From positions 10,158,501 through 10,222,500 of the forward strand of contig JAPNXP010000001.1 in assembly GCA_028753945.1 (NCBI GenBank): 64,000 nt of DNA, written 5' to 3'. This document shows, piece by piece, positions 7,493 to 61,835 of this stretch. Numbering within the stretch: position 1 is the first letter of the stretch; each line of letters begins with the position of its first letter. The DNA comes from Hexactinellida sp. DTS-2022. Lineage: Eukaryota > Porifera > Hexactinellida. The notes beneath the pieces were generated by a model. That model ran no database searches. It saw only the letters and a list, made by a program, of their open reading frames with translations, and was not told the origin of the DNA. A program made the translations under genes and the position numbers.

Positions 7493-7906
7493 TCCCTTGA
7501 TTTGAACGGTATCGCTTCTAGTTATTTTCTATAGAAGTGATACACATTATAACATACACAGATAATTTCAATCTTGGTTGCCAAACGAATAGATAGAAAA
7601 TTTGAATATTTTATTCAGCTCAGCTGTTTCGATTCATATATAACATGATATGATATGATATATATGATGTCTCTAATATACACTTACCCACAACATTCTC
7701 TATGATTAATATTTCTCGGGTACAAAATACATATTTAATTCAACTCAGTAATTTATTGCTACTTGGTACTAGTAGTAAGCTTTTCAAGTAATCTTCCTAA
7801 AAGTATAAATAGTCTGATACTCTGAAAGGAAATAGTAATAGAAACATTCAATACTTAATATTAATTATCAGCTACCACGCCCATTATTCATATTTCTTCA
7901 GTTAAC

Positions 7907-9763
7907 ATGACAACTCTGAGTAATAATCCGATTAAAGAAGTTAAGAATCACACATTCCAATTGCACTATTTTAAGCTACCAACATTTTGCTCGCATTGTA
8001 CTCGATGGATAATTAGTTTAAGCAAGCAAGGATATAAGTGTTCGCGTTGTAACTTAGCCATTCATGCATCTTGTGCAGATTTTGTTTCTTGCGATTGTCT
8101 TTCAGAAACTGAGAATACACAAGAAAACTTCCACCATTTCCTTCCGACTCAACAGATATTTTCTGTCTGTGAACATTGCGGACAAATCATATGTGACGAT
8201 GGCTACAAATGTGACCACAAGTTGTGCCAGTTGAGGGTACATTCAGGATGTCGCGCTCTAGCACCCCGAGAATGTGTTGAGCCATCTGAACTTAGATTCG
8301 GTTTCTTGATTCTCAACATTCTTTCCTTTTCAATCCGAAATTCATTGGTGGTACAGATTGATGTGAAAGCGGCACATAACTTGATTTCTTCGAAGAAGAA
8401 CGGACTCTCTGACCCACTTTGCAAATTCACCTTGAGGTATGGCTCTCAGGTATTAGAGACATTCACTTCCGAAGTTCAACAAAACACTCTTAATCCAGTC
8501 TTTGACGATTCTGTCATTTTCACTATTCGTGAAAATTCGAATATCAAACTCAATATCGCGGTATTTAGTCAGTCGAAGAAAAGATCGGGAACATTTATAG
8601 GAGGGTTTACTCTAACTTTGGATGATATTAAGAGATATAGCACCGCAAGTGACATTAAGTTTGTTCTCCTCAAAAGGAAACTCGCTAAATCCCTTCACCA
8701 TGTTACTCCGGCTATGCCAAGAAAGGACCCGGTTCAAGCGGTGAAACAATTAACAACATCCCCTCGCATTTCTATTGAGGATTTCTCTGTAATATCTGTA
8801 CTTGGTGAGGGCGGGTTTGGTAAAGTTGTACTAGCAGAGCTGAAGGATTCCCCGGAGAGTGCATTTGCTATAAAGGTGATTAGCAAGAGGCAGGCTATGA
8901 GCGATGATCTAATGAATGCACTGTTAGTAGAGCATCGGGTTGCTGTCATTGAAAACAAACCCTCTTTCCTCGCAGGAATACTCGCATCCTTTCAAGACCC
9001 TGAATACTTGTACATGGTATTTGAATTCTACAGTGGAGGAGACCTGCTCTACCATATCAATCAAGAGAAAATATTTCCGGAAGAACGCACGCGGTTTTAC
9101 ATAGCAGAGGTTTCAATCGCTTTATTCTTCCTTCATAGCCGTGGCATCGCATACCGTGATCTAAAGCTTGAGAATATTATGCTAGACAATGAGGGCCACA
9201 TTAAACTTGTGGACTTTGGGATGTGCGTAGAAGGTATTATTAACGGGCGAAATAAGATCGATTCATTTTGTGGAACCCTTAATTATCTGGCTCCTGAAGT
9301 GTTGAAGCGAATTCCATACGACTGTGGTGCTGATTTATGGAGCTTGGGTGTCCTTGCATACGAAATGATGTTAGGGAAATTTCCTTACATTGGTAATACA
9401 GAAATGGAACTTATAAACACAATCCAAAACGCCCCATTGAGATTGCCATTTTATCTATCAGAAGCTGCAAAATTATTCATCTCGAGTTTACTGAAGGAGA
9501 ATCCAACGGAGCGACTCGGTTATAACCCGGAGAGTGGGCGTGATGAGTTCAGGTCTGCTCGATTCTTCTCCCAAACAGAATGGGCGAAGCTTGAAAATAG
9601 GGAAGTCACGCCTCCCTTCGTCCCAAGACTGCAAAATGTCAAATCTACCACTTACTTTGAGTCGAGAAGTGATTCGTTTCAAGTTTCCAAAACCCTGCCC
9701 GTTGAATCAGATGTTGTTAAAGAATTTAATTATCTTTCTACAAATATGCTTGCATTACTTTAA
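7907..9763 (+). CDS. Protein kinase C-like Ser/Thr kinase (C1-C1-C2-kinase), single exon
   Basis: A 618-residue AGC-family kinase in the domain order of conventional PKC. Two cysteine-rich C1 domains come first (residues about 15-64 with canonical H-x12-C-x2-C spacing, and 76-123 with C-x4-C in place of C-x2-C). A C2 domain follows at about 145-262, then the kinase domain at about 290-552. The glycine loop LGEGGFG, AIK lysine K323, YRDLKLEN with D418, DFG with D436 and the APE motif are all present, so catalysis should be intact. The activation-loop residue before FCGT is Ser where PKCs usually have Thr. The C2 domain keeps SDP and TLNPVFDD, but the loop that supplies the later calcium-binding Asp residues reads FSQSKKRSG, so calcium binding is doubtful. 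The 14 residues before C1A contain no pseudosubstrate, and the usual C-terminal turn motif is missing; FNYLST may be a degenerate hydrophobic motif. A pyrimidine-rich TATTTCTTCAG just before the ATG could be a splice acceptor, so a further 5' exon is possible. Confidence 0.92.
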   Translation: MTTLSNNPIKEVKNHTFQLHYFKLPTFCSHCTRWIISLSKQGYKCSRCNLAIHASCADFVSCDCLSETENTQENFHHFLPTQQIFSVCEHCGQIICDDGYKCDHKLCQLRVHSGCRALAPRECVEPSELRFGFLILNILSFSIRNSLVVQIDVKAAHNLISSKKNGLSDPLCKFTLRYGSQVLETFTSEVQQNTLNPVFDDSVIFTIRENSNIKLNIAVFSQSKKRSGTFIGGFTLTLDDIKRYSTASDIKFVLLKRKLAKSLHHVTPAMPRKDPVQAVKQLTTSPRISIEDFSVISVLGEGGFGKVVLAELKDSPESAFAIKVISKRQAMSDDLMNALLVEHRVAVIENKPSFLAGILASFQDPEYLYMVFEFYSGGDLLYHINQEKIFPEERTRFYIAEVSIALFFLHSRGIAYRDLKLENIMLDNEGHIKLVDFGMCVEGIINGRNKIDSFCGTLNYLAPEVLKRIPYDCGADLWSLGVLAYEMMLGKFPYIGNTEMELINTIQNAPLRLPFYLSEAAKLFISSLLKENPTERLGYNPESGRDEFRSARFFSQTEWAKLENREVTPPFVPRLQNVKSTTYFESRSDSFQVSKTLPVESDVVKEFNYLSTNMLALL

Positions 9764-25688: not shown

Positions 25689-25969
25689 ATACATTCCCAA
25701 TACAAATAGGTCATGCAACATACACGCTGGGCTGGGGACATTATATGTGTCCCCAGTGTGGCCCTTTTATTAAACTGCATGGTACCATATATGTCTAGTA
25801 CTAATACGATTGATAATATGTAGCAAAAATTCAATGCGAATGGATCTGTAATTATTACTTTATTAAATACATCTAATCCTGAGGTATTAATAGATTAACT
25901 ATTGTCCGATAAACAGGTTGCGTGATTGTATAAGGAGTTGTATTAGTATCCATTAGCAGTGCACTATCA

Positions 25970-27211
25970 ATGGCTAGTGCTGATGGCGAGGGAGATAGCT
26001 TCCTCTCCCGCGTGGAGAGAGTGCGTAGCGACATACGAGCTAAGTTCCTGAGAGCTCACCTGGCACTGCAGGCCCGAGAGGCCGATCTGCTGGCAGAGCT
26101 GCAGAGACTAGCGGATGAGCACACGGGAGAGGGAATAATGCTACAGATCAAACGACTGTCGAGTTCGAAGGATGCTCTCAGGGATTCTCTTACGGAGAAT
26201 GAGAACCAAGATGTTCTCGATAAGTCGTTAGCGCCTATTAATGCACGCATTGCGAAGTTAGAAATAAAGCTCCAGAGAGCTAAATATAGCTACCAGAGTG
26301 TGTCATTGGAATGGGACGTAGAGCTAGATGAGAAACTGAGTGTAGCAGGTGAGATACGACTTAATGCTGCGAAGGAAGGAGCACGAGACTACAAGGAGAT
26401 AGGAGACCCTGTTGCGGTATTTGGGAAACACAGTAAAGAGGAGTCTTCTTCACCTGGTGTTTTCTGGGATCCTATGGGTATAGCTATTAATCCTGTGAAT
26501 AATTATATTTACATTTGTGATGCAGGCAATAACCGAATCCAAGTTTATAACAAATCATTTGAATTTGTATTCCAATTCAGTGATAAGATGAATGTCCCAA
26601 ATGGTATTTGTATGAAACAGAACAAGATATATGTCACACAGTATCACTCTGATTCTCTCAACGTATATTCTACAGAAGGGAAATACCTGAACTCTGTTGG
26701 GGTTAAAGGAAAGGAGGAATTACAGTTTGACTTTCCAATGGGACTTGATGTTTCCACCGACAAGAATAGAATATATATAGCTGAAGTAAGGAATAATAGA
26801 GTTCAATGTTTGAACTTAAATCTCAGTTTTAACTCTTTTATTGATATTCCTTTTGCTGTAGATGTCAAACTGACTTCTGATGAGATTGTTGTATTGTCTG
26901 TTCGTAATCCCTGTGTGTCTGTGTACACATATTCTCACCAATTGATCCGTGAGATTATTCCTAAAGGTGAAGAGAATTCAGTTTTGTTTCCTTCTTGTCT
27001 CACTCTCGATAGTGCCTCAAATATTATAATTACAGATGGTGAGGCTCATTGTGTTTGTGTCTATTCTTTTGGAGGAGAGTTGATACATAGATTCGGGAAA
27101 GAAGGAAAGAAGAGAGGAGATTTCATACAGCCATATGGAATAACAATTGATTTTGAAGGGAGGATTATCGTTGCTTCTTCTAACCCCGAATATTGTATTC
27201 AAGTGTTTTGA
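25970..27211 (+). CDS. Coiled-coil / NHL-repeat protein (TRIM-NHL-like, no RING)
   Basis: A 413-residue single-exon protein. Residues about 10-130 are charged and heptad-like, a predicted coiled coil. From about residue 150 there are six NHL repeats of the form PxGIAIN...IYICDAGNNRIQVY, ending ...IIVASSNPEYCIQVF, which would close a six-bladed beta-propeller. NHL propellers bind protein or RNA partners in TRIM E3 ligases. No RING or B-box zinc finger is encoded here, so this is a RING-less relative whose ligase activity should not be assumed. The N-terminal third is clearly richer in GC than the propeller part, which could reflect a fusion or different constraint. The start is the first ATG of the frame. 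Confidence 0.88.
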   Translation: MASADGEGDSFLSRVERVRSDIRAKFLRAHLALQAREADLLAELQRLADEHTGEGIMLQIKRLSSSKDALRDSLTENENQDVLDKSLAPINARIAKLEIKLQRAKYSYQSVSLEWDVELDEKLSVAGEIRLNAAKEGARDYKEIGDPVAVFGKHSKEESSSPGVFWDPMGIAINPVNNYIYICDAGNNRIQVYNKSFEFVFQFSDKMNVPNGICMKQNKIYVTQYHSDSLNVYSTEGKYLNSVGVKGKEELQFDFPMGLDVSTDKNRIYIAEVRNNRVQCLNLNLSFNSFIDIPFAVDVKLTSDEIVVLSVRNPCVSVYTYSHQLIREIIPKGEENSVLFPSCLTLDSASNIIITDGEAHCVCVYSFGGELIHRFGKEGKKRGDFIQPYGITIDFEGRIIVASSNPEYCIQVF

Positions 27212-31971: not shown

Positions 31972-32540
31972 CTATGGATTTGGGAATGCTTTTGTCGAAT
32001 TTCTAAACCAACTCACAATCCTAAACTACATTATATTCCTATACTGCACAATAGAGTAGGAATAATCATTTTTTTGTGAGAATTCCTACATTTCGCTGCG
32101 CGATGTAGAAATTTACGGGAAATTTCCTTTCTCTAGCTCCAGGTGTTTAAGCAACAGTTATTAGGGTGACCAGAGACCAGTTGAAATTGATTTAGCCGGA
32201 CTGTCACGAAAATTTGGTTCCCCTTCAATAGTGTTTCGGGATCAAATCTTTGTGGAAATTTTGTCCTGATGAGATGTATGGTTAACTACTCGAGACAATG
32301 ATATAACACGAATCCCTTATTTCTCACAAGTTTTAATCTACTCTCTCTCTTTCAACTCTCACTTCTAACTTGTATGATGGTCGAATTACACATTTTACAG
32401 CCCCTAGGGCCTAGGCCCTAAACTCTCAACCGCTAAACTGATAACGTTTAAGTTCCTTTCTTCCTCGATCTATTAATTCGACGCGATGTAGAAATAATTG
32501 TTTTGATAGAGATAAATAATGTATACACGCAGGGAGTTTT
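31972..32540. other. Intergenic, no feature recognised
   Basis: AT-rich. The word GCGATGTAGAAAT occurs at about 32098 and 32482, but I see no element or gene. Confidence 0.35.
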
Positions 32541-32544
32541 ACAC

Positions 32545-34690
32545 ACTTGCGTACATTACATTTGCGTACAAAGTTTGTCATACACATTTGCGTACATTAC
32601 ATTTGCGTACAAAGTTTGTCATACACATTTGCGTACATTACATTTGCGTACAAAGTTTGTCATACACATTTGCGTACATTACATTTGCGTACAAAGTTTG
32701 TCATACACATTTGCGTACATTACATTTGCGTACAAAGTTTGTCTTACACATTTGCGTACATTACATTTGCGTACAAAGTTTGTCATACACATTTGCGTAC
32801 ATTACATTTGCGTACATTACATTTGCGTACATTACATTTGCGTACAAAGTTTGTCATACACATTTGCGTACATTACATTTGCGTACAAAGTTTGTCATAC
32901 ACATTTGCGTACATTACATTTGCGTACAAAGTTTGTCATACACATTTGCGTACATTACATTTGCGTACAAAGTTTGTCATACACATTTGCGTACATTACA
33001 TTTGCGTACAAAGTTTGTCATACACACTTGCGTACATTACATTTGCGTACAAAGTTTGTCATACACATTTGCGTACATTACATTTGCGTACAAAGTTTGT
33101 CATACACATTTGCGTACATTACATTTGCGTACAAAGTTTGTCATACACACTTGCGTACATTACATTTGCGTACAAAGTTTGTCATACACATTTGCGTACA
33201 TTACATTTGCGTACAAAGTTTGTCATACACATTTGCGTACATTACATTTGCGTACATTACATTTGCGTACAAAGTTTGTCATACACATTTGCGTACATTA
33301 CATTTGCGTACAAAGTTTGTCATACACATTTGCGTACATTACATTTGCGTACAAAGTTTGTCATACACACTTGCGTACATTACATTTGCGTACAAAGTTT
33401 GTCATACACATTTGCGTACATTACATTTGCGTACAAAGTTTGTCATACACATTTGCGTACAAAGTTTGTCATACACATTTGCGTACAAAGTTTGTCATAC
33501 ACATTTGCGTACATTACATTTGCGTACAAAGTTTGTCATACACATTTGCGTACATTACATTTGCGTACAAAGTTTGTCATACACATTTGCGTACATTACA
33601 TTTGCGTACAAAGTTTGTCTTACACATTTGCGTACATTACATTTGCGTACAAAGTTTGTCATACACATTTGCGTACATTACATTTGCGTACATTACATTT
33701 GCGTACAAAGTTTGTCATACACATTTGCGTACATTACATTTGCGTACAAAGTTTGTCATACACATTTGCGTACATTACATTTGCGTACAAAGTTTGTCAT
33801 ACACATTTGCGTACATTACATTTGCGTACAAAGTTTGTCATACACATTTGCGTACATTACATTTGCGTACAAAGTTTGTCTTACACATTTGCGTACATTA
33901 CATTTGCGTACAAAGTTTGTCATACACATTTGCGTACATTACATTTGCGTACATTACATTTGCGTACAAAGTTTGTCATACACATTTGCGTACATTACAT
34001 TTGCGTACAAAGTTTGTCATACACATTTGCGTACATTACATTTGCGTACAAAGTTTGTCATACACATTTGCGTACATTACATTTGCGTACAAAGTTTGTC
34101 ATACACACTTGCGTACATTACATTTGCGTACAAAGTTTGTCATACACATTTGCGTACATTACATTTGCGTACAAAGTTTGTCATACACATTTGCGTACAT
34201 TACATTTGCGTACAAAGTTTGTCATACACATTTGCGTACATTACATTTGCGTACAAAGTTTGTCATACACACTTGCGTACATTACATTTGCGTACAAAGT
34301 TTGCCATACACATTTGCGTACAAAGTTTGTCTTACACATTTGCGTACATTACATTTGCGTACAAAGTTTGTCATACACATTTGCGTACATTACATTTGCG
34401 TACAAAGTTTGTCTTACACATTTGCGTACATTACATTTGCGTACAAAGTTTGTCTTACACATTTGCGTACATTACATTTGCGTACAAAGTTTGTCATACA
34501 CATTTGCGTACATTACATTTGCGTACAAAGTTTGTCATACACATTTGCGTACATTACATTTGCGTACAAAGTTTGTCATACACATTTGCGTACAAAGTTT
34601 GTCATACACATTTGCGTACATTACATTTGCGTACAAAGTTTGCCATATACATTTGCGTACATCTCACTTAAGTGAGATTGCGTACAATAC
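32545..34690. repeat. 2.1-kb tandem array, 41-bp unit, TTTGCGTACA
   Basis: The main unit is TTTGCGTACATTACATTTGC followed by GTACAAAGTTTGTCATACACA (41 bp). About 50 units are present, with shorter variants that drop or add a 15-bp TTTGCGTACATTACA part. Units are nearly identical: most differences are CATACAC/CTTACAC or ATTTG/ACTTG. The array ends in an inverted patch (CTCACTTAAGTGAGAT, 34663-34678). No forward frame of the unit has a stop and 41 is not a multiple of 3, so all three forward frames stay open for over 700 codons. That is an arithmetic effect, not a gene. Confidence 0.95.
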
Positions 34691-34804
34691 ATTATTATTT
34701 GTAGACTATTCAAATTGATTTATCTAATTAATTTAAAAACAGGAATGAAAATTTAATGAGTATAACAGAAAATAACAAGCATAATAATTATAGGAAATAA
34801 TTTA

Positions 34805-36789: not shown

Positions 36790-38318
36790 TTGGTTTACTT
36801 GTATCATGGACGAGACTCAAGACATCTCAACCCTTGAGCAAGTTTGCATCTGTATTAGATATGTCGACGAGTCAGATCATAGTGTACGGGAAGATTTTTA
36901 GGATTTCATAACATAAATGGTACCACAGCTCTAGAGCTCTACGATATACTTATCAAGACGATAAATAATCTTAGTCTTGACATGCAGAATTTCCGAGGTC
37001 AGGCCTACGATGGAGCCTCAAATGTTTCTGGTCATGTCTCTGGTTTGCAGACATTAGTTAGGAGTCATTATCCAAAAGTCCTGTATTCCCACTGCGCTGG
37101 TCATAATCTTAATTTGGTGCTGAATGATGTTGCAAAGGAAGTTCGCCAGTGTTATCATATCGTGACGCTCGTAGGTAAGATCGGGGCATACATATGTGAA
37201 GGATTCAGCAAAAAGAAAAGTACATTTCGATCTGATACGAGTTGCGAACTCAGAAGACGGTAAAATTGGCAGCTCAAATGTACGGCCCATTTGCCCAACA
37301 AGATGGATTCTAAGATACCCGGCAGTAAATGATATTTTGGAGAATTATGAGGATCTTCTAGACTTCCTAAGCACCTCTAGCGACAATGAAAACAATGCTC
37401 AAGGATATGTTAGAGAACTTCAACGCTTTGAAGTATATTTCGGGGTACGCATTCTGCATCGTATCTTTGGTCAAGTCCACCCAGTTCACAATGCAATCCA
37501 ATCAGAATGAATGTCACTGGGGGAGTGTTCAAGTATAATAACTGCACTCACTGCTGCATTGGAATAGACGGAGAATCCGTGGATATTTTCACTGTATTCA
37601 TGACTAGCTGCAAGACTTCAGCATCAACTATGGGCATTGAATTGCCTGCAGTTCCTCGAGTTCCGCGAAAAGGGTGAATAGAGGAAATAGGGTTGACTGG
37701 GAAATTGATGATGCCGTTGTTGATAATTATTACCATGGTATTTGGACAAAGATGTATAACTCTCTTGTAGTATCACTGACAAAGCGTTTTCAAGAGAAGG
37801 CAATTGACATTGCACGGGATTTTCAAGATATTCCCTCCAATATTAGTGAGGTTTCTAATTATGAATTCCCAAGCATGAACTCACTCATGGAGCAGCTCTA
37901 CACAACAGATCTTAATTGGAAGTTTTTGAAGTTAGAGATGATACAATGGGATCGTGTTAGTAAAATATCCAACCCTACCCAACACACGACTGATCTGAAG
38001 TACCTTCACAAGTATCTTTCTGAGAAGTCTGATCATCGTCTCATGTGGCCTATTTTGGTTTTATTCCTTAAGCTCTACCTTCTTCTACCTTGTACGTCAT
38101 GTTCTGCCGAACGCGGATTTAGCTGCTTAAGACGTATAAAAACGTATCTTCGCAGCACAATGTCAGAAGACAGATTGAATGCATGTGCATTATGCAATGT
38201 ACATAATGAAATATTGGACAAAATGCATATTGCCAAAATCACTGACGAATGGATTAATAGGAGTGAGGTCAGGATGAATCGATTTGTGCTAAGTGAAGAT
38301 AGCTTGAGGAATTCTTAA
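36790..38318 (+). pseudogene. hAT transposase, ZMYM1/DUF4371 type, frameshifted
   Basis: IMDETQDISTLEQVCICIRY begins the DUF4371-like part. FRGQAYDGASNVSG and YSHCAGHNLNLVLND are the conserved catalytic blocks, and RPICPTRW follows. The last 214 codons end in the hAT dimerisation domain with SCSAERGFSCLRRIKTYLRS and MSEDRLNACALCNVH. Frame breaks occur near 36895 (in a T run) and 37200, with a stop at about 37508 and another change before 37674, so it is dead. No element ends could be assigned with confidence; a G/C-run terminus ending GACGCCCCTG at 38566 may be its right end. Confidence 0.88.
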
Positions 38319-39435: not shown

Positions 39436-39652
39436 CAGTAGACTTTGTTATAGGAACACCAGGGGACCGTATAATACAATAGCTCTGTTAGTAGGAACAC
39501 CAGGGGACCGTTGAAATATGTTCGTATTATACCGAATTCGTATTAACCGGAGTCACTTGCATGCATTTGTATAGGCTAGGGGAATTAAACCTTGTATACT
39601 CCTTAACCGAAATTTCCTTATCCGTATTTCTCCTATTAATGAGAGTCTACTG
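39436..39652. mobile_element. Pogo-like MITE in an intron
   Basis: CAGTAGACTTTGTTATAGGA and AGAGTCTACTG are the ends, with TA on both sides. GGAACACCAGGGGACCGT is repeated inside. It lies in the intron between the Ig and VWA exons. Confidence 0.72.
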
Positions 39653-39738
39653 TATGTATGTATGTATGTATGATGTTGTTGTTAATAATTTAAAACAACA
39701 TTTTGCAAACAAAACAACAACATTTTTGTTTTGTTTAC

Positions 39739-40223
39739 CTTCTATTTCAGTTGAAATAACTCTTCGGTTAGTCGGTGGGAAACTGTCACACTCCATAGCA
39801 ACACACGTGGACCATAGGTATGTCCCGGAGTGCTCTAGATTAGCTCTCAATATCGTTAGAATAACAGTTTCAGTTCCATTAACGATCTCCTTTGTAACAG
39901 AAAGACTCTCCTCTTTTGACAAATCAAATCCAAGGATTGTGTTTCCCCATTCCAATTGCATCTCTTGGTTGTCAGAGCTGCAAGTTAAGCTGAGTGTGTC
40001 GTTAACGTAGACTGAGCCTCTGGATGTGACACCACAGCTGTGCGAAACCTGACGAGTAGTTCCAGTTCTGCATTCCATTGTCACTCCTGTGTCGGTAGGC
40101 AGGTAGATATTCCCCGGATATTCTGACATTGTTTCGGTACCATTTGTATCTGAAGCCAGGAGAGACCGCATTTATAACTCTGCAGTAGAGGAGACTGTCC
40201 AGTCCGTGGGCAGAGTTTGGGAG
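39739..40223 (-). pseudogene. Ig-domain exon with an apparent frameshift
   Basis: From an acceptor ending GCGCAG the minus strand reads LPNSAHGLDSLLYCRV... then GFRYKWYRN, an Ig B-strand Cys and core Trp. The matching second half (NIYLPTDTGVTMEC..., then VNDTLSLTC and LEHSGTYLW) is in the next frame. The shift falls near 40135-40150. The exon ends at a donor GAAG/GTAAAC that is in phase with the VWA exon. Either the gene is decaying or a one-base assembly error is present. Frames also disagree with the upstream Ig exon, which favours decay. Confidence 0.6.
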
Positions 40224-40254
40224 CTGCGCAACGTCAAGAATAGCAGGGATGATT

Positions 40255-40500
40255 ACAAATACATAAATATATACGTAAACAACAACATAAACAATATAAT
40301 CATATACGCAAACAAGAACAACAACAAAGAAACATAAACAAAAAGAACAAAAACAACAAAGATAACATTTAAAAAAAACATAAATATAAACAACAGCAAC
40401 AACACAACAAAACAACAACAACAACAAAAAACAAACAAAACAAAGCAAGAACAAAACAAACAACAAAAACAAACAAACACACAACATTTGTCTACAAAAC
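40255..40500. repeat. AAC/AAAC-rich low-complexity intron
   Basis: Simple AACA-type repeats fill the intron between two Ig exons of the minus-strand gene; the frames of 86 and 166 codons crossing it are mostly this repeat. Confidence 0.75.
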
Positions 40501-40517
40501 AATAGTACAGCACTTAC

Positions 40518-40653
40518 CGTTTAGTTTAATAGAAGCTGTAGATATTCTCCCGGACATATTACCCTCACAAACATAAATTCCCGCATGTGTTAGCCGTGTT
40601 CTCTCTCCCGTTAGAATAAGGGACCATTCTACACCACAGATATACTCTGGTCC
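40518..40653 (-). CDS. Ig-domain exon, partial
   Basis: The minus strand reads GPEYICGVEWSLILTGERTR then LTHAGIYVCEG and ISTASIKLN, the second half of a V-type Ig domain with the usual D/HxGxYxC turn. It ends at a strong donor (ACG/GTAAGT). A weak acceptor (TAAGTAG) marks its start. No signal-peptide exon was found upstream; the hAT element at 40749-41800 lies immediately there. Confidence 0.55.
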
Positions 40654-51542: not shown

Positions 51543-52481
51543 TCACACTTCCTGAGGTGCCCCCTCATAGTCTAGGAAGTCCGGTAGCTTCCCTATAGCT
51601 GCGTACTCGTACATAGAGAGGTCGCACACCACCTCCTCCTTAGCGCGCTCCCGCTTGTACAGAATATTAAAGTGCCTCCTACCCACCACTAGGATAAACC
51701 AAACCAGAATTATAGCTGCGAATATCAGCCCTATTACAACCAGAATAACCAGTATAATTATCAGAATTATAACTAATGTGTGACCGCCACCACAGTTAAA
51801 GTTAGTTCCGGTACCAGTGCACCCCGTGCACCCCACGCACCCCCCGTACACAGGCACAACCGGGTAGTAGTAGCCGAGGTGACAGGGGTATCCAAACCAA
51901 CAGCAATAGAGACCCAGGAAGGCTGCGTCCGTGTCGTTACAGCAGCCGGGGGATTTGCAGCAGAGACAGAAGGTACCCACCAACAGACCTATCAGACCGA
52001 GGCTAGCGAAGAAAAACACAATCCCAGCCAGGTAGTACACGCCCACCTGAGCTGACTCCGGCCAGGAGCGATAGGGGAACAGATGCCAGATGTACTTACC
52101 GGCTGGTATATCCAGTCCGTAGCAAATAGCAGACATTAGGATAATCAATAGCTCGGCTATTATCAATAAGGTTAAGATGTCTCGAGTTAACAAGAGAAAG
52201 AGCTTGATACTCCTAGAGACACGCTGCTGCTTCATACAGACTCTGTACTTGTAATTACAGGTGTTGCAGTGTGTGAAGGATTGCTCGGTGTGTCTAGTCG
52301 CACGCCAGTTATCCAGACACCGTCTGTGTATCCATTTGGAGGACCCCGTGCAGAGACAGGGGGCAATCAGCCCCGGTCCTCCCTCGTAACAGATCCTACA
52401 GATGTCCCCTCCCTCCTCAGAGCCACCTATGGCCTGGTAGCTATTCCGGCCTCTATGGCAGCGACAGCACCATACTGACAT
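51543..52481 (-). CDS. RING-CH (MARCH-like) membrane E3 ligase candidate
   Basis: A 312-residue single-exon protein. Residues 28-75 hold a complete C4HC3 RING-variant finger: C28, C31, C42, C44, H52, C55, C72 and C75, with W59 in the usual position. This is the signature of MARCH ubiquitin ligases, which act on membrane proteins in endosomes, ER or plasma membrane. Hydrophobic segments lie at about 95-120, 148-175 and 240-275. Most MARCH proteins have two; here an unusual Cys/Gly/Tyr-rich loop (about 176-238, with CCWFGYPC and CVGCTGCTG) separates the second and third. Coding sequence is GC-rich relative to the flanks. Start is the first ATG. Confidence 0.9.
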   Translation of the reverse strand: MSVWCCRCHRGRNSYQAIGGSEEGGDICRICYEGGPGLIAPCLCTGSSKWIHRRCLDNWRATRHTEQSFTHCNTCNYKYRVCMKQQRVSRSIKLFLLLTRDILTLLIIAELLIILMSAICYGLDIPAGKYIWHLFPYRSWPESAQVGVYYLAGIVFFFASLGLIGLLVGTFCLCCKSPGCCNDTDAAFLGLYCCWFGYPCHLGYYYPVVPVYGGCVGCTGCTGTGTNFNCGGGHTLVIILIIILVILVVIGLIFAAIILVWFILVVGRRHFNILYKRERAKEEVVCDLSMYEYAAIGKLPDFLDYEGAPQEV

Positions 52482-52658
52482 CTCTTGTTACTAGTAACTG
52501 AATATGTATCAATGTATGTATTATTATTATTAATTAATTAAGCGTGAATACAATGTTCTACATAGTATATTAGTTGCTTAGTATAACTTCTTTGGTAAAG
52601 AGCATATTGCATTTACTAATTAAGATTATGATATAATATGTAATATTATATGAGATTA
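52482..52658. other. Upstream region of the RING-CH gene
   Basis: AT-rich sequence next to the divergent palindromic element; nothing specific is seen. Confidence 0.35.
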
Positions 52659-56004: not shown

Positions 56005-59000
56005 ATGAAACTTCTTTTCATTGTGTTGATGATCCTGATATTTATTCAGTTGCACTCACAAGTATACTCTCAAGGTAAGTACTGTTAAACATTTTATCTT
56101 AATAATACTAAGTGTGATTTATTCATAAATAGTGTACCCCACTAAGTCTTTAAAACGAAGTCAATTACACTAGTATATAGACTAACAACTTTTTAATAAA
56201 ATTTTCAGGCACTGAGGTTAACTATTTAAATTCACAAATGCGAAGCCGGGTTTTTATTTGAAGAGGTATGGTAATACTTGTGATGTAAAAAATATATACT
56301 ATATATCTATCCTTGTGTTTTAATGACATAGATTGTTGTTATTGTTTAATAAATCAGTACACAAATTATTGAGAATTCAAATGGACCTTAAAAAAGATTC
56401 CGACAGGTATTATAGGTAAAGTACACTAACCGACCAAAAGTATTTAGAGCAACAGGAATGTTAATACAAACAATATTCTTCTGATAGCTTATTATAAGCT
56501 GTACAACTACTCTTAAATGACATTAAATATATTGCTATAACTATACAATTTAAAACTGTGTTTCAGGTAATTTTCAGCCAATGGCATAAGTGTCTCTATC
56601 GTGCCACTTTTGGCACAAGTGGAACAAATTGGAATGTGGCTATATCTCAGTAGAAATAATCGTAACAATTATAAATTATGCATCTATACAGATATCAAAT
56701 CAGAATCTGTATAATTTGTAGCATCTACAAATGTTATTGTGCTGCAGGAAGCTATATAAAATTATTGTTGTTCAAATACAAAGTTTGAAAATTCTATATT
56801 AAAAAAAAAACTATAAATGACACTATTTGACGGACTAATATTGTATATTGCGCGACTGCACATCAGTTGAATGATCAATTACGAGACCACCGTGATATAA
56901 TGACTATTACGATACATAAGAAGACATATTAGTAGATTGTAATGAATATGTACCTTTGTGTTTGCAGCTCCTACAAGCGGTTGTGATGCAATTTCAGATG
57001 AAGGGAGATGCTACAACTATTTGACTAGCTCTGCAATAAACAGGCAAGATGCTAGAGATATGTGCATAGCGATGGGAGGAGATCTAGCTACTGTTACATC
57101 TCTCGGAGAGAATACAATAATGTACAACATTTATCCAGGAATTGCCCACTGTTGGATAGGACTCAATGACATAAATGTAGAGAATACCTTTGTCTGGGCA
57201 GATGGTAGCGAAAGCACTTATAGGAATTGGAGTCCTGAGGAGCCTAATAATGCTTTTGGGAATGAAGATTGTGTAGAAATATGGTCAACCCAACAGTGGA
57301 ATGATGGTAGCTGTACAGTTACAAAAAGTTGTTATTTCTGTAGCACAACAGGTCAGTCAGTCCTTCGAATAAAACATACTATTTGTCTACAAAAGATTGT
57401 ATCAAAATCATATCCTCTATTATAGGAGCACAAATAATTAACAATTCAACAACTTCGTACAAGTAAATTGAAAATGCTTGTGAACTTGTTTGTTACCAAT
57501 TTTTCACACATTTGGAATTCAAAACCTTTGCTTTGGCTAGTTAAAATAAAATGTGAATTACTACTTTGCTAATCCTTAACCCGCTGATAACCACTTGTGA
57601 CCCACATGCCCATATATGGGCATAAAGTGGTTTAGTTCCATTTCCGTGACCCATCGGTGGTAAACGTCGTGTTAAGAGAATAAGAGTATTTGAATATGTT
57701 GTATATGTTAGTGAGCCCATTTGGAGAAAAGATCAGTTCAAACACTTATACGCTATTAAGAGACAACACAATTCTAAACACAAACACTACTCTATATTGC
57801 ATAACAGAGAATAAAAACACGCCACAAGTTACCTGGACCTTTGAAGATAAGGAAGGAATAACAACTACTCTCTCTGCTACAACTAATGCTACTACAGGAG
57901 TCAGCACTCTCCATGTAACTAGTGATAAGACAGGATACTACAGATGTGTAGTCAGTCAGAACGGAGGGAGCACTATAACGTATACAGCTGAGATGCTAGA
58001 TTTCATTATAGGTAATAACTACAATCTATTGTATGTATTGATACAGTAGAACTCGGAAATAACGTACCCTGTTTTGCAGAAATCAGTCCTCCCGGACCAA
58101 TTAAGTAGGGGGGACCAATTTCTGCAAAATATTATTCGAGTGTACATAGTAACCGAATTTACCCCACAAGAAATACCTCTGCTTTATATACTTGGTTAGA
58201 ATAAATTAGTACGTACTAACCTAGGTACGTTATAACAGAGTTCTACCGATTACAAATCAACTATTGTATAATAGGTGCACCAGTCTTAATATTGAATTAT
58301 GGAAGTGGCAATGCATTATCTCTGCTCCCTCCTGCTGTCAACAGAGCTGATATTCCTGTACTCACACAGAATGTAATCCTGAGTGCTAATCTAGTTGGGA
58401 GATGGCAGACACCAGATGGCGGCTATGTCGACAGTGATTATATCAGAATCCCGACTCTCTATGTGTCTCATGCTGGACTGTACAAGTTCTATGTCACTAA
58501 CTGGGATGGAGTGTGGACACTGGCTATTCAGATAGACATATCGCCTGTTGGTGAGTGTTAATAGCATTATTTCAGAACTTCAATGTACGCTCTATCATAT
58601 CCATAGACCATTTGTATAATACATGCATTTGAAATCATTTTGAAATGTTACAAAAATTACTTTAAAGTGAAATGTTGTAAACTGAACAAGAGCTGAGTTT
58701 CGTCTAGTTCAAATTGCTGACAGAAGTTAATATTGCTGTGATGCTATACGCCGAAAATTATGTAATAACTGAGAAGAAAAAAATATAGAGAGCATTTTTT
58801 GTGTCTTAGTTTACTCACAATATTTGAAATACTGAAAAGTTCGAGTTAAGGGGCTGTAATGTTTCAGAGAAAATCAGAAGTTCATAGAGAAATTATAAAT
58901 ATTTCTTACTTGTGTTTAACAAGTATATTACGAGTTTTTGTTGTTGTTGTTGTTGTTTACAAAATTGATAAACAATATCAATATAAAAAACAATTAAGGA

Positions 59001-61835
59001 TTCTAAATTTTTGGGGTTAAGTGATCGTTTCGATCGAAACCGAAAGGTTTCGTATATAAATACGTACACCCAACCATATATATGATTAATTTTTATTATA
59101 TTGTAAAAAATTGTAACGATATATTCAAGGAATTGTCCAGGAGCGCGATACGCTCCTTTTGGAGCATGATATTTGGAAAATTTGAATTTAGGACCGCGAA
59201 AATTTGGTATCCTCTCCTATACCGTAACATTAATTTGTGATTTAGGCGTATGAAAATTGGATCAGACTAGGATTAGGAGCGTATTCACAAATGGCAGTAT
59301 AATACACTGGATATATTCCTAATGGAATTAATTAGATATCCAATTTAGCTAGTATTATTGTAGGTAGCTCATTTGGAATCAAAATAAACTCAACAACTTT
59401 CGCAGCACTACCAGAGGATTCCATTCTAGCATCAAACACTATTCTATACTGCATAACTGGCAGCAGAAACTCTACAGAGGAGTGGCGCTATCAAGACGTG
59501 TATGGTAACAGAACTAATCTCTCTGCTACAGCTGACGCTAGCACGGGAATAAGCACTCTGTCTGTAACTACAGATGTGCCGGGCTACTACAGCTGTGGGG
59601 TCTCTCTGGAAGGAGGAGTGGAGAGGACATACACTGTTGAGATGGTGGATGTATCTCAGTACACAGGTATCTAGTTATAGAGTGAACTCCCGTTATATTG
59701 GATATCCGGATATAACGAATACCCGCTTATAACGAAATGGAGATTTTCCAAAGAGCACTAAATGCATTAATTATTATCCGCTTATAACGAATATCCGGAT
59801 ATAACGAAGAAATCTACAGGTCGCAAGCACTTCATTATAACGAGAGTTTACTGCTGCATTTTCATGAAATTAATTTTCATGAAATCGATATTCATGAAAT
59901 GAAATCATTGTGATTTAATAAAAAACAAATCAATGTGATTTAATATACGTAGAAGAATATAAATGCGGTTTATACTCCCCCTATCACTTTAATACAATCC
60001 GGACAAACAAATAAACAAACACACAAACAAACCACAATCGAGTTTTAATCATACAGAGTAATTATACCTTTAGTAAATATACTTTCACACCCTAGTTGCT
60101 GAGAATACGGATAGCTATCAATACACAATGGGAGTAGATGCAGACAATATATTCCTGTTCTGCTACAGTCCTGATAATTCAGTTCAACTCTCTGATATTA
60201 ATTGGAAGAGACATGATAGAATTGGATTCTTCCCAAACCCATTGGACCTACACAGACTGGGATATCTCCTCAAATACACCAACTCTCATCCGATGGAATG
60301 TTTCGATACAGAATCTGGTAATCCTATCATGAGTGTCCAACTCAGTGTACAGGGTGAGTGATTGGCAATTCCTTATTTTATAGGTTTATTATTCATTGTA
60401 CGTATGTATATAGATAGATACTAGTATAGTAGTAGATTAATTCTGAGGAATTGAACAACAAAGTTATTTTTCAAGGTGTTTAGATAATTTTGAACCTTTA
60501 GGGTTGTAATTCAACTTCTCTATCGAATAAAATGTATAATATTTCAAGAATACGTTAATACATAGTTAAGAAAATAGTTAATGATTATTAGTAAATACAG
60601 CCGAGCTTATCACTACTTGCTGCATTATATAATTGCTTCAAATACTCTTGTGCTAATTAGGTCCTCCAACAATAACATTGTATCTCGAACTCGACACAGC
60701 ATTCTCTTTGCTCCCTCCTGCTGTCAACAGAGCAGATATTCCTGTACTCACACAGAATGTAATACTGAGTGCTAATCTAGTTGGGAGATGGCAGACACCA
60801 GATGGCAGCTATGTCGACAGTGATTATATCAGAATCCCAACTCTCTATGTGTCTCATGCTGGACTGTACAAGTTCTATGTCACTAACTGGGATGGAGTGT
60901 GGACACTGGCTATTCAGATAGACATATCACCTGTTGGTGAGTATTAATAACTTTATATGCGTTATTTAATAACTTCAATGTACCCTCTATCATACCCATA
61001 TACCCTTTGTATAATACATGCATTTTAAAGCCTCCATATAATGTTACAAAATGTTAGTTTAAAGTGAAGTGTTGTAAACTGAAGGGTCGCTACACGAAGT
61101 GTGGCACCCACACAACAAATATTCCCTACACCACTGTCAAATTTCAAGTATGTAGCTCTTACTAGCTCAATCAATTCTGGACAAACAAAAACAAACAAAC
61201 AAACAGACAAACAAACAAACAATCAGACAGACAAACACACAAACAAACAAACAAACAAACAAACAAACAAACAAACAAACAAACAAGCAAGCAAACAAAC
61301 GGTCAAACAAACAAACAAACAAACAAACAAACAAACAAACAAACAAACAAACAAACAAACAAACAGACAAACAAACAAACAAACAAACAAACAAACAAAC
61401 AAACAAACAAACAAACAAACAACCCCCAAACAAATATTTGTGATTTATTATATACGATTAACGATACATTTGAAGTTCTCTATCTATGCAGGTACTACAG
61501 CATTACCGAGTATACCCTATGCGATGTACACATTCATAGCTGTGCTTCTTACATTCGGCACCATCCTAATACTCGCTATACTTATGTGCGTATTCATCCT
61601 CTGCTCTATGAATATGAAGAGACGAAATGGGAGCAAACTTAGCTCGCTCAACAATCAAATCCATTATAATGCGATTTTCCGGGAATTTGATATAACTCTT
61701 CCCACGACACATACCAATAAGTCGCTTTTGTATCCAGAGAGCGTTCCTGATCCGAAGGAAGAGATACTGGATCAGAAACAACCGATCTTAGACGGCACCG
61801 ATGGTACTGCTAACCACTACGAAGTTAATAATTAG
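56005..61835 (+). CDS. C-type lectin / Ig transmembrane receptor, eight exons
   Basis: Spliced from exons 56005-56074, 56968-57351, 57712-58011, 58275-58550, 59364-59666, 60096-60353, 60661-60936 and 61492-61835, giving 736 residues. All introns are GT-AG, all are phase 1, and the reading frame stays open. Residues 1-22 are a signal peptide. Residues 28-151 are a C-type lectin domain with WIGL (86-89), EPN (115-117), E123 and WND (134-136): the full calcium site 2 with the EPN motif typical of mannose-type binding. Five Ig-like domains follow, one per exon: 152-251, 252-343, 344-444, 445-530 and 531-622. Domains 1 and 3 are paralogues; domains 2 and 5 are almost identical. Residues about 636-660 span the membrane. 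The tail has IHYNAI (679-684), an ITIM-type motif around Y681, and further tyrosines at 703 and 732. It is probably a surface recognition receptor; ligand and pathway are inference. Exon 5 contains no ATG near its start and would be missed by ORF searches. Confidence 0.88.
58044..58248. mobile_element. Pogo-like MITE in intron 3 of the receptor
   Basis: CAGTAGAACTCGGAAATAAC with TA before it, and TAACAGAGTTCTACCG on the right. GGACCAATT is repeated inside. Its right tip has mutated. Confidence 0.7.
58310..58690 (+). repeat. Duplicated Ig exon plus intron, copy 1
   Basis: From TCTCTGCTCCCTCCTGCTGT to the end of exon 4 this matches 60700-60936 with about one amino-acid change (GG/GS), and similarity goes on for about 130 bases into the following intron. 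The first 15-20 codons of the two exons differ. Confidence 0.9.
59129..59284. repeat. Dispersed repeat GCGATACGCTCC family, copy 2
   Basis: Matches 49470-49632; it lies in intron 4 of the receptor gene. Confidence 0.75.
59677..59853. mobile_element. Pogo-like MITE, TATAACGAAT type, in intron 5
   Basis: GAGTGAACTCCCGTTATAT and TATAACGAGAGTTTACTG are the (mutated) ends. GGATATAACGAA and CGCTTATAACGAA words recur. Confidence 0.7.
59965..60050. repeat. CAATCCGGACAAACAAA dispersed repeat
   Basis: Matches 4007-4070 and, inverted, 38763-38830. It lies in intron 5 of the receptor. Confidence 0.65.
60700..61085 (+). repeat. Duplicated Ig exon plus intron, copy 2
   Basis: Partner of 58310-58690; it carries most of exon 7 and the first part of intron 7. 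Confidence 0.9.
61180..61430. repeat. ACAA microsatellite in intron 7
   Basis: About 250 bases of nearly pure ACAA repeat with rare AGACAA variants. The frames it opens on both strands (rich in KQTN or CLFV) are artefacts; one of them appears joined to exon 8 but is not the real protein. Confidence 0.95.

Follow-up and report, generated by a model that had tools for sequence, protein, structure and literature searches.

The 64,000-nucleotide stretch analysed here (the window; positions 10,158,501 to 10,222,500 of contig JAPNXP010000001.1, assembly GCA_028753945.1, from the glass sponge Hexactinellida sp. DTS-2022) contains on its plus strand, at 56005..61835, a gene that joins a C-type lectin domain to an immunoglobulin-type (Ig) stalk, a membrane helix and a cytoplasmic tail. 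We refer to it as the lectin-Ig gene. The gene is real, and we consider it probable (roughly 0.7) that it belongs, as a divergent copy, to a glass-sponge family of diversified single-pass lectin receptors for glycans of microbes or of sponge tissue. In such a receptor the calcium-dependent C-type lectin at the tip would bind glycans, either those of microbes or those of other sponge tissue, the conserved stalk would hold the lectin at the cell surface, and the tail, with its one or two conserved tyrosines, would link it to uptake or to tyrosine signalling. Differences in the sugar-binding loop, including switches from EPN to QPD, would give the family breadth over varied glycans, and binding would most likely trigger uptake, adhesion or tyrosine-based signalling. 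A role in recognition is plausible because the family consists of many clustered genes that have diversified where the ligand binds. To our knowledge little is known about the receptors that serve immunity or allorecognition in glass sponges, which are largely syncytial, and a clustered family with a diversified glycan-binding loop would be a testable candidate repertoire for recognition of microbes, or of self and non-self, near the base of the animals. Copies of the gene differ strongly in this loop, and this is a stronger signal than the tail hexamer that resembles an immunoreceptor tyrosine-based inhibitory motif (ITIM). The focus thereby shifts away from the hexamer to the loop of the lectin and to the effector bodies.

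The lectin-Ig gene and its family

Splicing of the proposed eight exons gives an unbroken protein of 736 residues from the ATG at 56005 to the stop at 61835, and the seven introns are all GT-AG and each in phase 1. Exon 1 (56005..56074) holds the start codon and the signal peptide MKLLFIVLMILIFIQLHSQVYSQ and ends in phase 1; exon 2 (56968..57351) encodes the C-type lectin domain with its EPN and WND motifs; exons 3 to 7 form the stalk; and exon 8 (61492..61835) contains the end of the stalk, the membrane helix, a tail of about 75 residues with the hexamer IHYNAI, and the stop. The order and joins of the exons are backed by protein P0001 of the glass sponge Oopsacas minuta (41% identity, 82% query coverage, E 9e-228), whose signal peptide and lectin start resemble those of the lectin-Ig protein by eye, and by P0056, a transcript-derived protein that runs continuously through exon-6-, 7-, 5- and 6-like domains. 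The eight exons and seven phase-1 introns proposed by an earlier sequence-only reading are thus borne out, and the signal peptide, EPN/WND lectin, membrane helix and IHYNAI tail that it described are present in the spliced protein. Its description of a mosaic lectin-Ig membrane receptor of an early animal is likewise supported.

The stalk fared less evenly. Exon 3 (57712..58011), an Ig domain that we call type A, passes one Pfam Ig model (PF00047, 27.0 against a cut-off of 21.8), with three other Ig models below cut-off, and by this curated cut-off places the protein in the Ig superfamily. Exon 5 (59364..59666), a second subtype of type A and 49% identical to exon 3, belongs there by homology, and at E<=0.01 a profile of the two exons retrieved 16 PDB sequences whose names point to Ig domains. 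Exons 4 (58275..58550) and 7 (60661..60936) are of type B, which lacks both Ig cysteines, keeps a tryptophan and the GxY corner, and is weakly Ig-like. Each Pfam Ig model matched at most one of 11 type B members (best E 0.11), and a comparison of the type B and type A profiles aligned 19 columns (E 0.076). In the PDB the type B profile found 13 sequences at E<=1: one was a bacterial adhesin of 5,898 residues, which reached 9.2e-18 overall while none of its individual stretches passed; the other 12 matches were weak (E 0.02-0.8) and mostly Ig chains (JAML 0.022, Hoc 0.024, KIT 0.086). Exon 6 (60096..60353) encodes a conserved type C domain with two cysteines, which aligned with the type A profile over 32 columns (E 0.39), matched non-Ig Pfam models only, at E 0.029 or worse, and showed no Ig similarity in the PDB, where the best matches were proteasome chains (E 0.76-0.82). 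On these comparisons the Ig nature of exons 3 and 5 is supported, exons 4 and 7 may be Ig domains, and exon 6 is without detectable similarity. Of the five Ig-like domains that the sequence-only reading had counted, two are supported.

Exon 7 repeats exon 4 except in its first 18 codons, which differ at 20 of 54 nucleotides; the bodies of the two exons differ at 5 of 222 and are closer to each other than to their counterparts in the other copies compared (minimum 5.0% and 3.6%). Such closeness within a gene was clear in the lectin-Ig gene and not in four others among the six genes tested, and in 9624k it was equalled by the nearest other copy (2.7% both); the degraded exon at 12594k was excluded from the exon-7 set. 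This pattern suggests local conversion in some copies and no general rule.

The genome searched comprised 112.4 Mb in 18 contigs, and all copy counts are lower bounds that include the lectin-Ig gene's own copies. Tail exons occurred at at least 18 loci (19 rows, two of which are one locus), type B exons at least 27 times at 74-100% identity, plus two short fragments, and exon-3-type Ig exons at least 21 times at 71% identity or more; of exon 6 nine copies were aligned, the other eight being 85-91% identical to that of the lectin-Ig gene. The family copies lie mostly on contig C1 at 12.40-12.68 Mb, with further ones on C1 at 9.6, 11.9 and 16.0 Mb and on C2, C5, C9 and C13. Domain counts exclude copies on C10, C4, C15, C3 and C17 and the C13 lectin. 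Among the loci read, short members have the order lectin, IgA, IgB, fibronectin type III (FN3), membrane helix and tail, and long members the order lectin, IgA, IgB, IgA, IgC, IgB, FN3, membrane helix and tail. An array at C1 12.41-12.43 Mb, in which two lectin-IgA-IgB units precede a long-type end, may be one gene, with 7 kb unread between the units.

The family is defined by lectin-IgA-IgB exons, phase-1 joins and a homologous helix-and-tail exon, and the lectin-Ig gene has all of these, intron phases having been computed for this gene only. Two family features are absent from it, the FN3 domain before the helix and the tail tyrosine of the motif NExY, and it corresponds to the long type without FN3. 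Intron 7 (60937..61491) is the site at which FN3 was found in 15 of the 18 tail loci; here it contains an ACAA repeat (61181-61422), and tblastn found no FN3 in it. We therefore rejected a hidden FN3 exon and regard the gene as an FN3-less variant. The 18-locus family, FN3, the near-identity of exons 4 and 7 and the switching between EPN and QPD had all gone unremarked in the sequence-only reading.

Searches of protein databases scored at most 8000 candidates each. The full-length protein gave three matches, all from O. minuta (8000 candidates scored), and P0001 as query (53 hits, 8000 candidates scored) added P0004-P0009 of the same species, along with non-sponge proteins. A profile of the C-terminal half (types B and C and FN3) gave five matches, of which two belong to O. 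minuta and three carry no species name, so that among the 7999 candidates scored, at limited sensitivity, no other species was named as a source of homologues outside glass sponges. The sequence-only reading could not match the architecture to a named family, and Pfam and PDB searches found none that spans it. Literature searches among open-access papers returned no description of a glass-sponge lectin-Ig family, and neither "lectin" nor "allorecognition" occurs in the main text of either glass-sponge genome paper (PMC10280926, PMC10282587). The family is also not among the demosponge immune receptors listed in the excerpt of PMC6208332 available to us. Lectin-Ig proteins as such are already known; the new part would be a glass-sponge family of putative cell-surface sugar-binding receptors with a diversified lectin loop, which is apparently undescribed.

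Diversification of the sugar-binding loop

Exon 2 scored 64.7 bits with Pfam Lectin_C against a curated cut-off of 22.6 and contains both EPN and WND, and it is on these grounds a C-type lectin. A PDB search with the exon returned 136 sequences at E<=0.001, with mannose-receptor-type chains on top. In C-type lectins EPN marks mannose-type and QPD galactose-type binding. The 19 lectin exons that we aligned carry EPN (6), EPT (1), QPD (11) or QLD (1) at this position, while WND is intact in every one of them, and in O. minuta EPN and QPD both occur within the single protein P0005. The alignment leaves out the lectins at C1 11954k and C9 1286k, which accompany IgA exons at 73% and 72% identity, respectively.

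The sugar-binding loop, SPEEPNNAFGNEDCVEIWSTQQWNDGSCTVTKS (57231..57329, plus strand, letters checked), was compared with the rest of the lectin domain by its proportions of nonsynonymous (pN) and synonymous (pS) differences. In pairwise comparisons the loop gave pN 0.30 and pS 0.29, a ratio of 1.04 (jackknife 1.00-1.07, codon bootstrap 0.75-1.50), and the rest of the lectin pN 0.10 and pS 0.18, a ratio of 0.57 (bootstrap 0.40-0.82). The ratios of the other domains were 0.55 for type B, 0.43 for type C, and 0.54 and 0.62 within the type A subtypes. When substitutions were counted on two trees, the ratio of nonsynonymous to synonymous rates (dN/dS) was 1.23 and 1.27 in the loop against 0.52 and 0.53 elsewhere (Fisher p ~2e-6); without invariant columns the loop reached 1.42 and 1.47, a post hoc figure.

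Several points weigh against the family and its loop being read as a diversified set of glycan receptors. The loop differed from the rest of the lectin in a column permutation at p 0.031, and the two bootstrap intervals overlap. The synonymous rate is raised in the loop as well (pS 0.29 against 0.18), and the loop's dN/dS was not significantly above 1 on either tree (p 0.12 and 0.085); positive selection across the whole loop is suggested and does not reach significance. The dN/dS values are parsimony counts over 19 paralogues and are not independent; stops occur elsewhere in the gene in some of these copies, and others show signs of exchange between exons. The contrast was measured within the glass-sponge lectin-Ig family alone. 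The fold of the stalk is partly unproven. Since the lectin-Ig gene is without features common to most of its relatives, its own function may differ from theirs. The reading as a whole is based on sequence comparison.

Tail tyrosines and competing explanations

Tails were compared in an alignment of 20, of which 15 came from this genome, four from O. minuta and one from another relative. It excludes C1 12595k, C5 4276k and C9 1293k (overwritten, short or broken) and 12680k; the remaining pieces of 12595k and C9 1293k keep the conserved tyrosine. This most conserved tyrosine, in the motif NExY, is present in 18 of the 20 tails and is replaced by asparagine in 9629k and by phenylalanine in the lectin-Ig gene, where F685 (61677-61679) directly follows IHYNAI. 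The residue at +3 from it is I, L or V in nine tails, M in six and D in three, and the partner specificity of the tyrosine could therefore differ among copies. A second conserved tyrosine, Y703 in SLLYPES (61731..61733), is shared by 14 of the 20 tails, while the others have F (five) or H (one) in that column. In the tail of P0058, another relative, the conserved motif occurs twice (NEIYEQI...LAY and NEAYGKI...PFY).

We weighed four other explanations; they partly overlap with the preferred reading, so the odds do not sum to one. The one that survives best, while still being rather unlikely in our judgement, is that of an endocytic or phagocytic receptor in which the conserved tyrosine is a YxxPhi sorting signal and not a kinase target, and which takes up glycan-coated particles; this can itself coincide with the preferred reading. 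The residues at +3 conform to such a signal in the nine tails with I, L or V and the six with M, and the lectin domains that score best in the PDB are of the mannose-receptor group, whose members are endocytic receptors. The signal is nevertheless broken by D at +3 in three of the 20 tails, P0001-P0003 of O. minuta (YNQD, YHQD), and two tails, that of the lectin-Ig gene among them, are without the tyrosine.

Somewhat less probable is a membrane-bound aggregation partner, whose lectins would bind tissue glycans and hold cells or the syncytium together, with no immune recognition. By the rule given above the QPD copies predict galactose-type binding. A calcium-dependent, galactoside-binding C-type lectin of the glass sponge Aphrocallistes vastus (AvL) is proposed as an aggregation factor in the excerpt of PMC4557014 available to us. 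Adhesion alone, however, does not predict loop diversification or EPN/QPD switching in tandem copies.

We regard it as more doubtful still that the lectin-Ig gene is a decaying copy on its way to becoming a pseudogene. It lacks FN3, with the ACAA array in its place, and the conserved tyrosine, and the family includes copies whose frames are broken or interrupted by stops (e.g. 12592k and C9 1293k). Its eight exons, on the other hand, are open over 736 codons with GT-AG splice sites, EPN and WND are intact, and FN3 went undetected in copies 12642k and 12654k as well (the query of FN3 plus linker matched 28 residues).

The sequence-only reading had pointed to the hexamer IHYNAI (I679-I684, 61659..61676; codon of Y681 at 61665-61667), which fits the strict ITIM pattern [SIVL]xYxx[IVL]. 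The hexamer is indeed there, and an inhibitory tail as defining feature did not hold up. The strict motif occurs in three of 20 tails (the lectin-Ig gene, 9629k and 12635k) and in none of the five from elsewhere; shuffling the tail of the lectin-Ig gene produced an ITIM-like hexamer in 12.8% of cases, and in the 15 tails of this genome the three observed motifs compare with 1.83 expected from shuffling, which is near chance. Conservation of Y681 in orthologues, which the same reading had set as its own test, failed: four of the 20 tails have a tyrosine in this column, each of them from this genome, and the five from elsewhere have none there. We therefore rejected the ITIM as a family signature. 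As a family trait the ITIM is a weak reading, and for the lectin-Ig gene it is unproven; an inhibitory role of this single copy is possible because the genome contains two tandem SH2-SH2-phosphatase series, SHP-like, at C17 188.8-198.0 kb. An inhibitory allorecognition receptor, with a self ligand on the lectin/Ig stack and a phosphorylated Y681 that recruits an SHP-type phosphatase, is improbable on this evidence, even with these two series and the ITIM-bearing receptors of the Botryllus and Hydractinia allorecognition loci (PMC12065747, as far as excerpted) in its favour, the more so as the family's conserved tyrosine is F685 here.

Possible lectin heads on other bodies, and comparison with known systems

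A wider proposal, which we put forward tentatively and hold to be less probable than a family of single-pass receptors, is a modular system in which a diversified lectin-Ig head is carried by tyrosine-tailed receptors, by seven-helix bodies of the adhesion-GPCR (G-protein-coupled receptor) type and by receptor tyrosine phosphatases. At C17:3385700-3390500 (L079, minus strand) a lectin (63.2 bits with Lectin_C), a domain of Ig appearance that matches nothing in Pfam, a membrane helix identified by eye and two tyrosine-phosphatase domains follow in order, with HCSAGVGRTG in the first phosphatase; the locus is a candidate lectin-headed receptor phosphatase. Of 34 phosphatase loci, 8 have a lectin exon no more than 12 kb upstream on their own strand, against 5 with one downstream and 1 with one on the opposite strand as controls; of 59 seven-helix loci the corresponding figures are 14, 6 and 2. 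The counts draw on all 110 lectin rows. From the 71 seven-helix rows, 59 were used after removal of second pieces belonging to one locus; from the 106 phosphatase rows, 34 were picked by eye, a choice that passed over many second domains and short fragments. Tandem clusters inflate the counts. In O. minuta, P0005 and P0009 each hold a lectin, a GPS and seven helices within a single protein. For the present genome we infer the joins of heads to bodies. If the proposal is true, EPN/QPD loop changes would supply breadth over a conserved stalk, and the system would correspond in sponges to the families of paired receptors that activate and inhibit, its inhibitory arm being a built-in phosphatase and not an ITIM.

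Three further regions of the genome contain clusters of this kind. Repeated clusters in which phosphatase domains come after lectin exons and Ig-like exons were seen at C15:940-1001 kb (six) and C3:574-595 kb (one). At C2:5258-5269 kb (L077, L078, L080) family-type lectin-IgA-IgB exons, two more lectins and a 7tm_2 domain lie on the same strand, and the series is possibly one gene.

Elsewhere in the window, open frames on the minus strand at 39647-40520 resemble further Ig-type domains by eye, the part at 39647-40171 being without a Pfam match. A long tandem array of ICVHYICVQSLSYTFAYITFAYK repeats at 32452-34718, open in three frames, is likely a minisatellite rather than a gene. The window also holds a hAT transposase C-terminal dimerisation region (37641-38318), a protein-kinase-C-like frame recognised by eye (7865-9763), and, by Pfam, an NHL-repeat protein (25934-27211) and a RING-variant membrane protein (51543-52487).

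The closest known relatives are the O. minuta proteins P0001-P0004, which have the same domain types, with A, C and B domains before FN3, membrane helix and tail, and the conserved tail tyrosines; P0002 and P0003 are shorter forms. They differ from the lectin-Ig protein in having up to four lectins (P0004), in the presence of FN3 and in lacking a tyrosine at the Y681 column. Their annotations read "Low affinity immunoglobulin epsilon Fc receptor-like", "Lactose-binding lectin l-2-like" or hypothetical, and the literature searched gave no description of proteins of this type.

The best-scoring solved lectin domains for exon 2 are those of the family of the macrophage mannose receptor, LY75 and PLA2R, and the non-sponge matches of P0001 are mostly of mannose-receptor or neurocan type by name or Pfam content and cover 9-46% of it. 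The macrophage mannose receptor family has stacked lectin domains and no Ig stalk, whereas the lectin-Ig gene has one lectin and five stalk exons and so falls outside that family.

Lectins with Ig domains are known from other animals. The excerpt of PMC4944128 available to us names the crayfish PcLec3, the lecticans and, from Drosophila, a lectin that also has Ig and FN3 domains. PcLec3, which promotes phagocytosis of bacteria, resembles the lectin-Ig gene, by description only, in joining a C-type lectin to Ig; it differs in having one Ig and one C-type lectin domain in 252 residues and in its reported secretion (PMC4944128, same excerpt). The snail CREPs were grouped with these lectins by name only. 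The allorecognition receptors FcoR of Botryllus and Alr of Hydractinia are multigene Ig receptors with tyrosine motifs in the tail, according to the excerpted part of PMC12065747. They are like the lectin-Ig family, again by description only, in being multigene and in combining Ig domains with tail tyrosine motifs, and unlike it in that no lectin domain is named for them in that part and in that the ITIM is not conserved in the lectin-Ig family. AvL, as described in the excerpt of PMC4557014, consists of polypeptides of ~22 kDa deduced from cDNAs, with a hydrophobic N-terminus and, within that description, no Ig stack; like the predicted head of the lectin-Ig gene, it is a calcium-dependent C-type lectin of a glass sponge.

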